The notes under the pieces were generated by a model that was not told where the DNA came from, ran no database searches, and worked only from the letters and a program-made list of their open reading frames with translations. DNA of 64,000 nucleotides. Source: Nitrospira sp. (lineage in GTDB: Bacteria; Nitrospirota; Nitrospiria; Nitrospirales; Nitrospiraceae). Numbering within the stretch: the stretch's first letter is position 1; every line of letters starts with the position of its first letter. Shown one piece after another: positions 3,766 to 9,507 of this stretch. A program made the translations under genes and the position numbers. The DNA is taken from the NCBI GenBank assembly GCA_023248215.1, contig JAHFEW010000004.1:35739-99738 (forward strand), read 5' to 3'.

Positions 3766-4899
3766 ATGGAACTTTCCGCACTCGCCTTCGCACTGGTGCT
3801 CGCCTTGGCATTCGCCAACGGGACGAACGATGTCTCGAAGGCCATCGCGACCCTGGTCGGCAGCGGTGTGACGGATTATCGGACGGCGATCACCTGGGGA
3901 ACACTTTGGACCATCGCCGGTGCGGGAACATCCGCGTTTGTTGCGAGTGCGATGGTTAAAACGTTTAGCCATGGCCTCATCCCATCGAACAGGGTCCTCC
4001 ACCCGGCCGTCGCCCTGGCCGTCTTGATTGGAACGATGGCATGGGTCTTCATTGCGTCCCGCACCGGCTTCCCCGTCTCGACAACCCATGCCCTCACCGG
4101 CGCCATCGTGGGTTCCGGATTCGTTGCTTTTGCGGGAGAGGGATTGATCTGGCCTGCAATTGGACAGAAGATCGCTTTTCCCTTGTTGCTCAGCCCGTTT
4201 CTCGCCTTCGCTGTCTCGCTCCTCATCCATCCGGCCGTGCGCGTGCTGGCCGCGAGGTGGGAAGGAGCCTGCGTGTGCGTGATACCCGCGTCGCGCGCGC
4301 TCGTCGCAATCGACGCGCGCGGCAGCACGCGAACTCTCTTCCAGACTGAGCGCTTCGGACAGCCGGTCATGGCAGTGCCATCTCAATGCGATCGGGCCGG
4401 CCTACAGGGATTGGTCATGGGGCTCGATACGATTCACTGGCTCTCCAGCGGCCTCGCTTCTTTTGCCCGCGGCACGAACGACGCGCCAAAGATCGTGGCG
4501 ATGCTGTTGCTCGGCAGTGCGACCGCTGTGTGGCCAAGCACCTCGTTCCAGCTCGCCGCCTTCGGGGGAGTCTCCCTGGCAATGGGGCTCGGCAGTTATT
4601 TCGGTGGACTCCGCGTAACGGAAGTGCTCGCTGAGAAAGTCACGAAGATGAATCATGCGGAAGGACTGTCTGCCAACCTGACGACCTCCTTCCTCGTGCT
4701 CGTCTCCGGAACGCTGGGGCTGCCTGTCTCGACCACGCATGTCAGCAGCTCTGCGATTATCGGCATCGGTCTGCTCAAGGGGCTTCACACGGTCCGATGG
4801 ACAACGGTCCGCGACATGGTCCTAGCCTGGGTCGTGACGCTTCCCGCAGCAGCACTCCTCGCCTGTGTCGCCTATCTGATTCTCGCCAGAATTCTCTAG
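3766..4899 (+). CDS. pit: Inorganic phosphate transporter, PiT family
   Basis: Repeated signature FANGTNDVSKAIATLVGSG and FARGTNDAPKIVAMLLLG, GLPVSTTHVSSSAIIG. Confidence 0.9.
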   Translation: MELSALAFALVLALAFANGTNDVSKAIATLVGSGVTDYRTAITWGTLWTIAGAGTSAFVASAMVKTFSHGLIPSNRVLHPAVALAVLIGTMAWVFIASRTGFPVSTTHALTGAIVGSGFVAFAGEGLIWPAIGQKIAFPLLLSPFLAFAVSLLIHPAVRVLAARWEGACVCVIPASRALVAIDARGSTRTLFQTERFGQPVMAVPSQCDRAGLQGLVMGLDTIHWLSSGLASFARGTNDAPKIVAMLLLGSATAVWPSTSFQLAAFGGVSLAMGLGSYFGGLRVTEVLAEKVTKMNHAEGLSANLTTSFLVLVSGTLGLPVSTTHVSSSAIIGIGLLKGLHTVRWTTVRDMVLAWVVTLPAAALLACVAYLILARIL

Positions 4900-5084
4900 C
4901 CCGCATTATTCATGAGGGTTCGTCACGAGACCGCGGAGACGCCATGCGAGACGAGCGGCGAGCCCGCCCGCCTGGCCGCGTGCAACCGGCGGCCAGGCTT
5001 GTCGCAGCAGCGTCTCGGCGGTTGCAGTAGAAGCTCTCAGTAGAGTCGAACATGGGCGCTAACCTGGAGCCGCTCTCGATGGTT

Positions 5085-5538
5085 TCGATGCACGCATCTA
5101 CCGCCAACCACAGCGGTCAGGGGTTTCCCACATCCGCTCATCGAACCGGACGTGCGGTTTTCCCGCATCCGGCTCTCGGACGAGTGTCACACCGAGCGCA
5201 GGATCTCCCGTGTTGCCCTGTGTGCTGTGCTGACGTGCCACGCCCCTTACCCCGGCGAGCGACTCCATGGTCATCGGTCGGGTGCTCCCATGGACTCCAG
5301 CGGCCTTCCCGGTTATTCAGGCCGGTCGGCCCCTCGCGACTTCACTTTCGAGGCCTGCTCAGGCTTCACGCGTGTTGCGGCCCGTCGGCTCGCTGACCCA
5401 CCCATGGTGGGCCTCTGTCCCGAGGGCTTCAGTCGGTCGGTTACCCTTGCGACTGCCTCGGTAGCTACTGGGGTGTCCCGACAACTCCCCAGACAGGACT
5501 TGCACCTGTGAGACACACAGCGCCTTTTCACGGCGCAC
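5085..5538 (-). mobile_element. ORF-less (or ORF-deleted) group II intron
   Basis: Minus strand starts GTGCGCCGTGAAAAGGCGC...CACAGGTGCAAGTCCTGTC (5' boundary/domain I style) and carries a 34-nt domain V GAGCCGGATGCGGGAAAACCGCACGTCCGGTTCG at 5142-5175; no reverse transcriptase ORF; 3' boundary approximate. Confidence 0.75.
5142..5175 (-). ncRNA. Group II intron domain V hairpin
   Basis: GAGCCGGAT-GCGG-GAAAA-CCGC-ACGTCCGGTTC fold with AGC-type catalytic stem. Confidence 0.8.
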
Positions 5539-5612
5539 TGAATAAGGCGGGCTAACGTTCTCCTTGATGTAAAAGGATTCGATCCCATCCTCGACTCATA
5601 GAAATCACACAG

Positions 5613-6734
5613 ATGCAGCGATCTCTATTCATCAATACCGATTCTGGAGGAACCAATGGGCCTCATTCCGGCCATGATTCATCTTGGCTGCCACTGCCGG
5701 TTGGTGTCCTTGCATTACTCGTTGCAATTGCCATGCTATCTTTGCTCATAGCCCCCATGACGCAGGCCTGGGACTGGGTCCCGACCGACGAGGAGATCCA
5801 ACAATATCGGAAGAGTTGGAACCCGCTCTCCAACGGTCCCATTTTCTTGAGCGGTGTGGATATTCACCCTCAAGGGCAATTCACGGCACACCCATTCATT
5901 TTTTCACAGATCAGCGAAAAGCGATTCGGCAATCAGTTAACCGACAATCGAATGGCGGCTTCGGTTCATTCGTACCAAGTCGCTCCCGTCGTCACAATGG
6001 CCTATGGCCTGACAAACCATCTGGAGTTGAACGTGGGCCTGTCCGGTTCAGCCTTTTGGGCCAACAGTTCGGATCAGTTCAACAGAGGGAAGGGTGGCCC
6101 TTGGACCACCGACACCGGGCTCGGTGACACACAGATCTATTTCAAGTATCGGCCGGTCGTGCAGGACCCCGACGGTTGGCGTCCCTCCGTGACCACCTTC
6201 AACATGATCGTGTTGCCAACCAGCCGGTGGGTTACCGGGACCGAGAGTCCGCCCGGCGGATTCGCTCCACTGGGACGATTACCGGCCTCGCGATTCGGCG
6301 CGTTGACCTGGACAGAAGGAATTCTGGTGCGAAAAAATCTTGAGCCTTTTCGAATCAGCGCAGGTGTCTTCTACTCCTACCACCTGCCGGGCAGCGATGG
6401 CGGCCAAAACACCTATGCATCCGATATCGTCAATACCCGAGTGGTCATTGAACATATTCTCGACGACAAGCGGGGCTTTGGGTACAACCTCGAATTCGTC
6501 GGCTTTCACGGTCTGCCGTTTCGGACCGATGGGCATCAGATCAACGTGGGTGGTCGACATGGATTCACCTCCCTCGGAGTCCAACCGACGATTCAATACC
6601 GGCTTGGCGAACATTTTGTCGGAGCGGTTGGATGCCTATTCACCGTGGCTGGACAAAACACGCAGGATGCGATCTATCCCAATTTTTCGCTCTACTACTA
6701 CTGGAGCAAGAGCGGCAGCGTCATCATGCGGTAG
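5613..6734 (+). CDS. Putative outer-membrane beta-barrel/transporter protein
   Basis: N-terminal hydrophobic segment, alternating strand pattern (GLTNHLELNVGLSG, DTQIYFKYRP, GFGYNLEFVGFHG), terminal YYYWSKSG. Confidence 0.6.
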   Translation: MQRSLFINTDSGGTNGPHSGHDSSWLPLPVGVLALLVAIAMLSLLIAPMTQAWDWVPTDEEIQQYRKSWNPLSNGPIFLSGVDIHPQGQFTAHPFIFSQISEKRFGNQLTDNRMAASVHSYQVAPVVTMAYGLTNHLELNVGLSGSAFWANSSDQFNRGKGGPWTTDTGLGDTQIYFKYRPVVQDPDGWRPSVTTFNMIVLPTSRWVTGTESPPGGFAPLGRLPASRFGALTWTEGILVRKNLEPFRISAGVFYSYHLPGSDGGQNTYASDIVNTRVVIEHILDDKRGFGYNLEFVGFHGLPFRTDGHQINVGGRHGFTSLGVQPTIQYRLGEHFVGAVGCLFTVAGQNTQDAIYPNFSLYYYWSKSGSVIMR

Positions 6735-7140
6735 TCGTACGAAGGAAGGCTTCGATCCGTCTCGCAATCTCGTCGCGCACGCGGCGGAAGGTCTGTCGGC
6801 GTCCGTCGTCATCGGTCACTGCCGCAGGGTCATCGAAACTCCAGTGGATCAATCGCGTGGGGCCCGGCCACAGCGGACACGTCTCCTTGGCGCGATCACA
6901 CACCGTCACGACATAGTCGAACGACTGATGCGTCAATTCACCCACGCCCTTCGAACGATGTTGCGAGATGTCGATTCCGACTTCGGCCATCGCATCCACT
7001 GAACCCGGATTGAGCCCGACCGGATGCGTGCCCGCGCTGAACACCTCGAACCGATCGCCCGCCAGATGCCGTAACCATCCCTCCGCCATCTGACTGCGTG
7101 CGGAGTTTCCGGTGCAGAGGAATAACAGGCGCGACTTCAT
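6724..7140 (-). CDS. arsC: Arsenate reductase, LMW-PTP/thioredoxin-coupled type
   Basis: MKSRLLFLCTGNSARSQMAEGWLRHLAG P-loop and YVVTVCDRAKETCP. Confidence 0.92.
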   Translation of the reverse strand: MKSRLLFLCTGNSARSQMAEGWLRHLAGDRFEVFSAGTHPVGLNPGSVDAMAEVGIDISQHRSKGVGELTHQSFDYVVTVCDRAKETCPLWPGPTRLIHWSFDDPAAVTDDDGRRQTFRRVRDEIARRIEAFLRTTTA

Positions 7141-8231
7141 GTGCCGACCTCCTGTCCGAACCAATGCCTGGTTCTGTTGCACAGGCTGCAGACGGACAAC
7201 ATGACCGGCACTTCCACCAAGACCCCCACGACCGTCGCCAAGGCTGCGCCGGATTCCGGGCCAAACAACGCAATGGCCGTGGCGACGGCCAGCTCAAAGA
7301 AGTTGCTGGCGCCGATGAGCGCACCCGGGGCAGCGATCGCATGGGGCACCTGCCATCGATGCATCAGCCCATAGGTCAGCGCCGCATTCATATAGACCTG
7401 CAACACAATCGGCACGGCAATCAAGACGACATGAATGGTCTTGCCCATGATGTTCTGTGCCTGAAAGGCAAAGATGAACACTAAAGTGATGAGCAAGGCC
7501 GCGATCGTGACCGGAGCGAACCGGGGCAACAACACCTCTTCCACCCATCGCCGCCCATGGCGCCGGACGAGCCATAGCCGGAGACCGGCGCCGATCATCA
7601 ATGGAATCACGATAAAGATCGCCACCGAGTACAGGAGGACATCGAAGGGAACGGCCAGCGACGAGGCGCCGCTTACCAGCAACCCGACAATCGGCGCAAA
7701 CAGCACCAGCATGATGAGATCGTTCACCGCCACCTGGACAAGCGTGTAGGCGGGATCACCGTCCGTCAGGTAGCTCCAGACGAACACCATGGCCGTACAG
7801 GGAGCGGCAGCCAGAATGATGGCTCCCGCAATGTATTGATCGGCCTCCGCGGGTGTGATCCATGCGGAGAATGCATACCGGAAAAACACCCAGGCCAAGG
7901 AGGCCATGGAGAACGGCTTGACTACCCAATTGACGAACAGCGTGATCAGCAGTCCGACCGGTCGCTTTCCCACATCACGAATCGAGGCAAACTCAACCTT
8001 CATCATCATCGGCACGATCATCAGCCAGATCAGGACGGCGATCGGTAGATTGATATGGCTGTCCTGCCCGAACTCCGCCCCTCGAAAATTCGAGACCAGA
8101 CCCGGGGCCATCTGGCCGATCAGGACGCCCGCCACCATGCACAACGCCACCCAGAGCGTCAGGTACCGCTCGAAGAGCGAGAGCCGCTTCTCCGCCACCT
8201 GCGGCGCACCGACCGACAACGCGACTTCCAT
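7137..8231 (-). CDS. acr3: ACR3-family arsenite efflux transporter
   Basis: LWVALCMVAGVLIGQMAPG, AAPCTAMVFVWSYLTDGDPAYTLVQVAVNDLIML, ten-TM hydrophobicity; overlaps arsC start. Confidence 0.92.
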   Translation of the reverse strand: MEVALSVGAPQVAEKRLSLFERYLTLWVALCMVAGVLIGQMAPGLVSNFRGAEFGQDSHINLPIAVLIWLMIVPMMMKVEFASIRDVGKRPVGLLITLFVNWVVKPFSMASLAWVFFRYAFSAWITPAEADQYIAGAIILAAAPCTAMVFVWSYLTDGDPAYTLVQVAVNDLIMLVLFAPIVGLLVSGASSLAVPFDVLLYSVAIFIVIPLMIGAGLRLWLVRRHGRRWVEEVLLPRFAPVTIAALLITLVFIFAFQAQNIMGKTIHVVLIAVPIVLQVYMNAALTYGLMHRWQVPHAIAAPGALIGASNFFELAVATAIALFGPESGAALATVVGVLVEVPVMLSVCSLCNRTRHWFGQEVGT

Positions 8232-8257
8232 AGATTGAGCTCCTTAGGCTTTGACGC

Positions 8258-9094
8258 TTATCTGCCGGCTCGGGCGGAGACTGCCGGTTTTTTCGCTCGG
8301 ATAAACGCGCTCATGAACTTCCCCTCGACCTGGGACAAGAGCAGATCACTCGTCAACTCCGTCCCGACCAGAAATTCTTTCACGTCGTCGGCGTGGTAGA
8401 TTCGCGTAGGCTCGATCTCGATGTCGACAAATCCCGCCTGACTCAGCAAGTCTCGATATTCCGTCTCTTCGAGCGCACCGGCGACGCAACCTGCCCAGAG
8501 TTCGAGATTCTGGCGGATTTCCGTGGGAACCGCCCCCCTCACCACGATGTCGGACAGCGCCAGCCGGCCTCCGGGGCGCGAGACGCGGAAGGCTTCCGCG
8601 AGCACACGTTCCTTCTCGCCGGACAGATTGACGACACAATTGCTGATGATCACGTCCACCGAGTGATCGGGCAGCGGGATTTGTTCGATTTCGCCCTTCA
8701 AAAATTCGACGTTCTCCACACCGGCCTTGCGCTGGTTCTCCCTGGCCAACGCCAACATTTCATCGGTCATGTCCAACCCGTAGGCTTTGCCCGTCGGGCC
8801 GACTCGTTTGGCGGAAAGCAGCACATCGATACCTCCGCCGGACCCCAGATCCAGCACCGTCTCACCAGCATGGAGTTCGGCCAGAGCGGTCGGATTTCCA
8901 CAACCCAGAGAGGCAGCGACCGCATCGGCGGGCAGCCCCTCTCGGTCCTGGTCCGAATAGAGATTTGAGGTGATCGGATCGACATTTGCCAGCGGCGGCG
9001 AGGCCCCGCAGCAGGAACTGCCTCCGCTCTTGGCTCTCACGGCAGCTTCTCCGTACTTTTCCTTGACTAGGTTTCGAATAGCCTTTGCGTCCAT
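8258..9094 (-). CDS. arsM: Arsenite methyltransferase (short form)
   Basis: GGSSCCG N-terminal Cys pair, [45 protein letters not shown]. Confidence 0.92.
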
Positions 9095-9116
9095 TGCGGT
9101 TCCTCCCATACTATCC

Positions 9117-9132
9117 ATCAATATTTATTGAT
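9117..9132. promoter_or_regulatory. ArsR-type operator upstream of arsM (perfect 16-bp palindrome)
   Basis: ATCAATATTTATTGAT, flanked by the same ATACGTC as the arsR-promoter palindrome. Confidence 0.6.
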
Positions 9133-9150
9133 ACGTCTGGCCCAAAAAAA

Positions 9151-9459
9151 TCAACAACAGCCCGTGGCTCGGCGCGCCTTCCTGGCCTGCTTGAAAGAAT
9201 CCACGAGTTCGTCTAGCTCATTGAAGGCTTCGGCATTCACGCTATAGTACATCCATCGACCATCCCGGCGATCCTGGATCAGACCCGCTTCCTTGAGCAC
9301 CTTCAGGTGAAATGAGAGACGCGACTGCCCGGCTTGGAGTGTGTCTGTCAATTCGCAGACACAACACTCGCCCTCCTTCAGCTCATCAAGGATCTCCAAT
9401 CGGGTCTGCTCCGCAAGCGCATGAAATAACTCCGCCGCCCGCGCTGAATTTTTCACCAT
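9151..9459 (-). CDS. arsR: ArsR-family metalloregulator
   Basis: GECCVCELTDTLQAGQSRLSFHLKVLKEAGLIQDRRDGRWMYYSV; start assigned downstream of the promoter at 9478-9507. Confidence 0.9.
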   Translation of the reverse strand: MVKNSARAAELFHALAEQTRLEILDELKEGECCVCELTDTLQAGQSRLSFHLKVLKEAGLIQDRRDGRWMYYSVNAEAFNELDELVDSFKQARKARRATGCC

Positions 9460-9477
9460 GCTTCCCTTCATGCAAAA

Positions 9478-9507
9478 ATTATATATCAACAAATGTTGAT
9501 ACGTCAA
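9478..9507 (-). promoter_or_regulatory. Sigma70-type promoter of arsR operon with operator in spacer
   Basis: Minus strand TTGACG-[TATCAACATTTGTTGATA]-TATAAT; the 18-nt spacer is a perfect palindrome. Confidence 0.75.

Follow-up and report, generated by a model that had tools for sequence, protein, structure and literature searches.

The window, that is, the whole 64,000-nucleotide stretch of a Nitrospira sp. contig (JAHFEW010000004.1) that was analysed, carries a group II intron lacking an open reading frame between two plus-strand genes, the first of which encodes a phosphate permease (PHO4; pit). The preliminary description spoke of convergence-free flanks: both neighbours do lie on the plus strand, but the intron is antisense to them. 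It also assigned the locus to an arsenic region, as is borne out by ArsR-like regulator, methyltransferase, SBF-type transporter and LMWPc-type genes at 6724–9507, and missed the 658-bp repeat element (4897–5554) that encloses the intron. The features are as follows.

4897–5554, no strand: host MITE, 658 bp with the intron and 159 bp without it; recognised from paired inward-facing ends, intron-free copies and a MITE-free site in a related genome (G077)
4897–4912, plus: right terminal inverted repeat of the MITE, TAGCCCGCATTATTCA
5040–5538, minus: ORF-less group II intron, 499 nt, GTGCGCC...TCGACTCTAC; delimited by Rfam matches, shared termini and a gapless empty-site alignment
5040–5139, minus: domain VI (long apical extension) together with the 3' terminus; the basal helix shows compensatory changes
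5143–5175, minus: domain V, 33 nt, AGC triad, GAGCCGGATGCGGGAAAACCGCACGTCCGGTTC; from Rfam and alignment with relatives
5176–5204, minus: residual domain IV, 29 nt; from intron length against full-length relatives
5205–5538, minus: domains I–III; RF02003 match at 5370–5511
5313–5319, minus: EBS1, TGAATAA, in a loop; Watson-Crick complementary to IBS1 at 7 of 7 positions
5539–5545, minus: IBS1, TTATTCA, directly upstream of the intron
5539–5554, minus: left terminal inverted repeat of the MITE, TAGCCCGCCTTATTCA, which is the 5' exon of the intron

Boundaries and structure of the intron

The intron was delimited in three ways: by covariance models, by the termini of its relatives and by alignment to copies of the MITE that lack it. 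Using cmscan with Rfam 15, group-II-D1D4-4 (RF02003) matched the minus strand at 5511–5370 (104.1 bits, E 3.5e-22) and Intron_gpII (RF00029; domains V and VI) matched it from 5177 to 5040 (48.3 bits), both above the gathering score, which for RF00029 is 40. No reverse transcriptase (RT) lies between the two matches. The 5' end is GTGCGCC at 5538 and the 3' AC occupies 5041–5040. Relatives with a readable 3' end terminate, after domains V and VI, in TCGACTC(T/G)AC (TCGACTCTAC); the terminus of one from the same bacterial family (L079) is TCGACTCGAC, and the window reads TTCGACTCTAC at 5050–5040. Excising 5538–5040 regenerates a 159-bp MITE, the junction of which aligns gap-free to intron-free copies in the same genome (L003, L005) and in related genomes of the genus (L160, L174, L185, L186). 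Taken together, the shared termini and this alignment fix both ends. The feature is a real, complete and compact group II intron ribozyme, running on the minus strand from 5538 to 5040.

The preliminary description had rightly proposed a minus-strand group II intron with a GTGCG-type 5' end and no RT ORF. The RF02003 match provides the covariance hit outside domain V that it had set beforehand as a check, and the intron-free MITE copies of this and related genomes back the insertion boundaries against an empty site. Its 3' end at 5085 has to be moved 45 nt further, to 5040, on the evidence of the relatives' termini, the end of the cmscan match and the MITE restored on excision, and the length given as about 450 nt is corrected to 499 nt. 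A canonical domain V is present, but has 33 nt (5175–5143) and not 34.

Conservation of the fold was assessed with RNAalifold. In domains I–III (20 sequences: the window copy and 19 relatives) 46 of the 84 consensus pairs have at least one double-sided compensatory change, as have 13 of the 24 pairs of domains V and VI (15 sequences). The basal helix of domain VI pairs GGATGTGGG with CCCATGTTC in the window and GGGGACGGG with CCCGTCCTC in its alphaproteobacterial counterpart, the pairing being maintained through compensatory and wobble changes. The window copy keeps 74 of the 84 consensus pairs in domains I–III, and most of the misses are common to other copies in its bacterial family. A bulged, unpaired branch-point A is predicted from the sequence at 5046, 7 nt from the 3' end. 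No lesion private to the window copy was identified, relative to its relatives, in these pairs or in the catalytic landmarks, and the catalytic core (domains I–III, V and VI) is intact as judged from sequence. The domain V hairpin with its AGC triad, conserved among the relatives, the D1–D4 fold, the GUGYG/AY ends, the EBS1-IBS1 pairing and the precise insertion all mark the element as a group II intron; inspection by eye picked out no clear EBS2-IBS2 or EBS3 pairing. A IIC intron, of the kind that inserts after terminators, is ruled out by the AGC triad, the domain VI of about 100 nt and the transposon terminal-repeat target; a terminator artefact produced by the 5' GTGCGCC hairpin is ruled out by the full D1–D4 match and the covariation.

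The host MITE and the targets of related introns

Thirty-six sites in the genome match TAGCCCGNNTTATTCA with at most one mismatch, whereas the reversed pattern, run as a control, matches nowhere; close-set pairs of these sites face each other. Among related complete genomes, three have 20, 63 and 43 such sites and one has none. The elements bounded by these ends are non-coding and mostly 130–320 bp long, which makes them MITEs. Another family of MITEs, about 183 bp in length (L016, L159, L168, L172), has similar ends (TAGCCCGGACTATTCAT...) and an interior different from that of the intron-hosting MITE. Elsewhere in the genome (L002; contig C163, 15155–15207) there is a perfect 53-bp palindrome consisting of a MITE end, the first 21 nt of an intron (GTGCGCCGTGAAAAGGCGCAC) and a MITE end again; its appearance suggests a hairpin-bounded deletion in which almost the whole of an intron and its MITE was lost.

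In the window the insertion point of the MITE is a CTAG that supplies the phosphate-permease gene with its stop codon. The TAG stop consists of the first three bases of the MITE end (4897–4899), and the MITE-free G077 keeps the same stop. At the orthologous locus of G077, the flanks of which are 92–95% identical, there is neither MITE nor intron: the same CTAG closes the permease gene, and immediately after it comes the sequence that in the window flanks the far side of the MITE. Beside this empty site (L201, around 3198329–3198343) G077 has lost about 550 bp by deletion, including the beginning of its orthologue of the window gene at 5613–6734. In two more distant relatives (G098, G055) pit and the next gene are adjacent, again without MITE or intron. 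The MITE was thus either gained at, or lost from, the window site within the genus. Since the intron sits in a non-coding MITE and is antisense to its neighbours, its insertion probably costs the host little, spliced or not.

The right end of the MITE (TAGCCCGCATTATTCA) resembles the terminal repeat (TAGCCCGCATTTCTCA) of an IS1380 element in Bradyrhizobium valentinum (L102). By this resemblance and by the target of the intron's relatives the MITE is provisionally labelled IS1380-type. Both of its ends are intact and its flanks suggest a TA target duplication, and dozens of MITE ends occur in several genomes of the genus. These observations would fit a MITE and intron that move as one unit through a transposase acting on the terminal repeats, a reading which we nevertheless hold to be quite unlikely: the genome has no second MITE-intron composite, and no IS1380 transposase (NF033539) was found in it or in four others of the genus, though one may lie outside these assemblies.

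Relatives of the intron were collected with a conserved D1 motif, for which 84,980 species genomes were scanned; this yielded 36 contigs, most of them alphaproteobacterial, one from a Nitrospirae MAG and a few from other sources. Several hold an RT/maturase of about 442 amino acids in domain IV, and the seven full-length relatives with readable ends (L100, L102, L103, L115, L118, L122, L123) measure 1911–1980 nt. The 442-amino-acid RT of the B. valentinum intron (TIGR04416, 348 bits) has RVT_1 and GIIM matches, and the domain search gave no match to an endonuclease domain. This intron lies 16 nt inside the left terminal repeat of its IS1380 element (NF033539, 397 bits), the right repeat of which is present. 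In L103 and L123, too, the intron is succeeded by IS1380 transposase sequence, and in L097 by a fragment of such sequence. On the Vaf10 plasmid of Rhizobium leguminosarum (L212; NZ_CP016288.1, 212500–218400) a single IS1380 has an intron copy in each terminal repeat, the two facing inward. Other members lie elsewhere, one of them (L210) adjoining an IS5-type gene. The lineage therefore homes to IS1380 ends often, not always.

The alphaproteobacterial ltrA introns in IS1380 terminal repeats (L102, L212) are of the same ribozyme type as the window intron, with the same 3' terminus and the same insertion point, and their 5' exon is a similar terminal repeat (TAGCCCGNNT...TCA). They differ in encoding the RT/maturase of about 442 amino acids within some 1.9 kb, whereas the window copy has no RT and lies in a MITE. 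An RT-bearing intron in another genome (G027) was considered as a parent and ruled out, its RT being about 49% identical to that of B. valentinum and its position outside any terminal repeat.

Target choice can be read from the EBS1-IBS1 pairing. Over 19 introns with different exons, 120 of 133 cognate positions pair, against a mean of 88 when the exons were shuffled; 120 was reached in none of 20,000 shuffles, a figure that is not a strict probability because related introns have common ancestry. Direct evidence of the pairing comes from exact co-changes of IBS1 and EBS1: TTATGCA/TGCATAA (L122), TCATTCA/TGAATGA (L123), TCTCTCA/TGAGAGA (L118) and AAAGACA/TGTCTTT (L094).

Loss of the reverse transcriptase

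With 499 nt in all and 29 nt between domains III and V, the window intron lacks about 1.4–1.5 kb of domain IV, including the RT ORF, relative to its full-length relatives. Pieces of the ORF occur in other copies of the same bacterial family, N-terminal in L074 and C-terminal in L080, from which it follows that RT-bearing copies once existed in this family. The suggestion in the preliminary description of a deletion derivative is upheld by these fragments and by the 442-amino-acid RT/maturase of relatives at the same kind of insertion point. Among 147 genomes of the family no match crosses the deletion junction; as far as sampled, the deletion is private and does not define an amplified ORF-less family.

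An IEP that might serve the intron was sought in its own genome, and no cognate one was found, though contig breaks at other introns could hide one. A PF00078 profile search gave one match, on contig C5, and GIIM, the group II maturase domain, gave none in any contig of the genome. The C5 RT (L012, 5576–7181) was rejected as the missing IEP: it has no maturase domain and stands between a small upstream ORF and a downstream frame with an FGE-like repeat, an arrangement that probably represents a diversity-generating retroelement. Contigs end at or close to two further intron 5' ends and two further copies of domain V, so an IEP may fall inside an assembly gap. The two 5' ends (L004 and L006, on C123 and C113) belong to copies of another group II subtype cut by the contig end; their 5' exon is TAGCCCGGATTCTTCC, which makes them a second lineage that uses this kind of repeat. 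As candidates for full-length copies of the window intron they were rejected for being of a different subtype (AGCGGGTGAGAGTCCCGC...), the like 5' exon notwithstanding. The two domain V copies (L127 and L128, on C40 and C190) are 3' ends of a third, IIC-like intron; that they might be the 3' halves of the C113 and C123 introns is unsupported, their 3' flanks not being MITE-like.

One explanation of an ORF-less copy is active mobilisation in trans, in which a related intron of the same cell supplies the RT for splicing and retrohoming, as happens in Thermosynechococcus elongatus (PMC2882425). The intact core structure and EBS1-IBS1 pairing are what such an intron should have, and an RT could hide at the contig breaks where the other intron ends lie. 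We think it unlikely in this case, given that the intron is single-copy in its genome, with no second copy found there, that its deletion junction went unmatched in the 147 genomes, and that no group II maturase domain was found in the genome, its one RT belonging by context to the retroelement-like cassette.

A dead remnant comparable to FRE652 of Sinorhizobium, no longer able to splice and kept in a silent MITE by drift, is a good deal easier to entertain, and we rate it a real possibility, somewhat short of an even chance. Several relatives from its bacterial family are broken (L074, L079, L080, L081, L082), RmInt1-type remnants without most of the IEP have been described (PMC5894124), and the genome yielded no cognate IEP. 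Against this, the 5' end, EBS1, the domain V triad, the domain VI branch A and the 3' end of the window copy are all intact, and it bears no identified lesion of its own.

Origin of the window copy and comparison with known systems

There is good support for identifying the element as a group II intron that is ORF-less by deletion and lies in an IS1380-like MITE. Its history is most probably, and we say so with considerable confidence, that of a deletion derivative of an RT-encoding lineage whose RNA targets IS1380-type and MITE ends by EBS1-IBS1 pairing. The RNA of this lineage would recognise the terminal inverted repeats of IS1380 type, and similar MITE ends, through that pairing. Either an RT-bearing ancestor or the window copy itself would have retrohomed into the MITE, 16 nt from its end, an entry route suggested by the anatomy of the insertion and by the relatives. 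The window copy would then have lost, or would already have lacked, the missing part of domain IV with its RT, and any further movement would need an RT in trans or transposition of the carrier MITE. On present sequence evidence the intron may be competent to splice and would at present be immobile. The genome yielded no IEP of the lineage, so the intron may fail to splice in vivo, and the ribozyme could be a fossil on which decay has yet to act.

ORF-less bacterial introns that arise by deletion of domain IV are documented (PMC2882425). TeI3 of T. elongatus became ORF-less, as did the window copy, through a domain IV deletion of about 1.5 kb; it proliferated to 17 copies in a genome that also encodes driver IEPs, in contrast to the single copy and absence of a detected IEP here (PMC2882425). 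C.te.I1 of Clostridium tetani is likewise ORF-less with no related IEP found in its genome, and is reported to self-splice robustly in vitro, while the window intron is intergenic and known from sequence (PMC4424553). A free-standing ORF-less ribozyme, splicing without a related maturase, using the MITE repeats as a multi-copy niche and forming a composite that moves by two mechanisms, seems to us very improbable in the window. A review (PMC5894124) reports that RmInt2 uses both inverted repeats of ISRm17. On that account homing to the ends of an insertion sequence is an already known strategy; as in the window lineage, terminal repeats are the homing site and both ends are usable, the difference being that RmInt2 encodes its IEP. 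ISRm17 is listed in PMC10194956 as ISNCY/ISDol1 and not IS1380, and RmInt2 is likened to the present intron by strategy and not by sequence.

The window copy is thus a well-delimited example with clear empty sites, which leaves knowledge of the mechanism unchanged. It is of moderate interest, since ORF-less introns are described as rare in bacteria and the target rule is clear. What makes it informative is the repeated invasion, by its relatives, of the ends of a single transposon family. The lineage is known from Nitrospirae and Alphaproteobacteria at the least; its EBS1 and its target change in step, and it offers a test set for the adaptation of introns to transposon ends and for any limit that introns may set to the spread of such ends.
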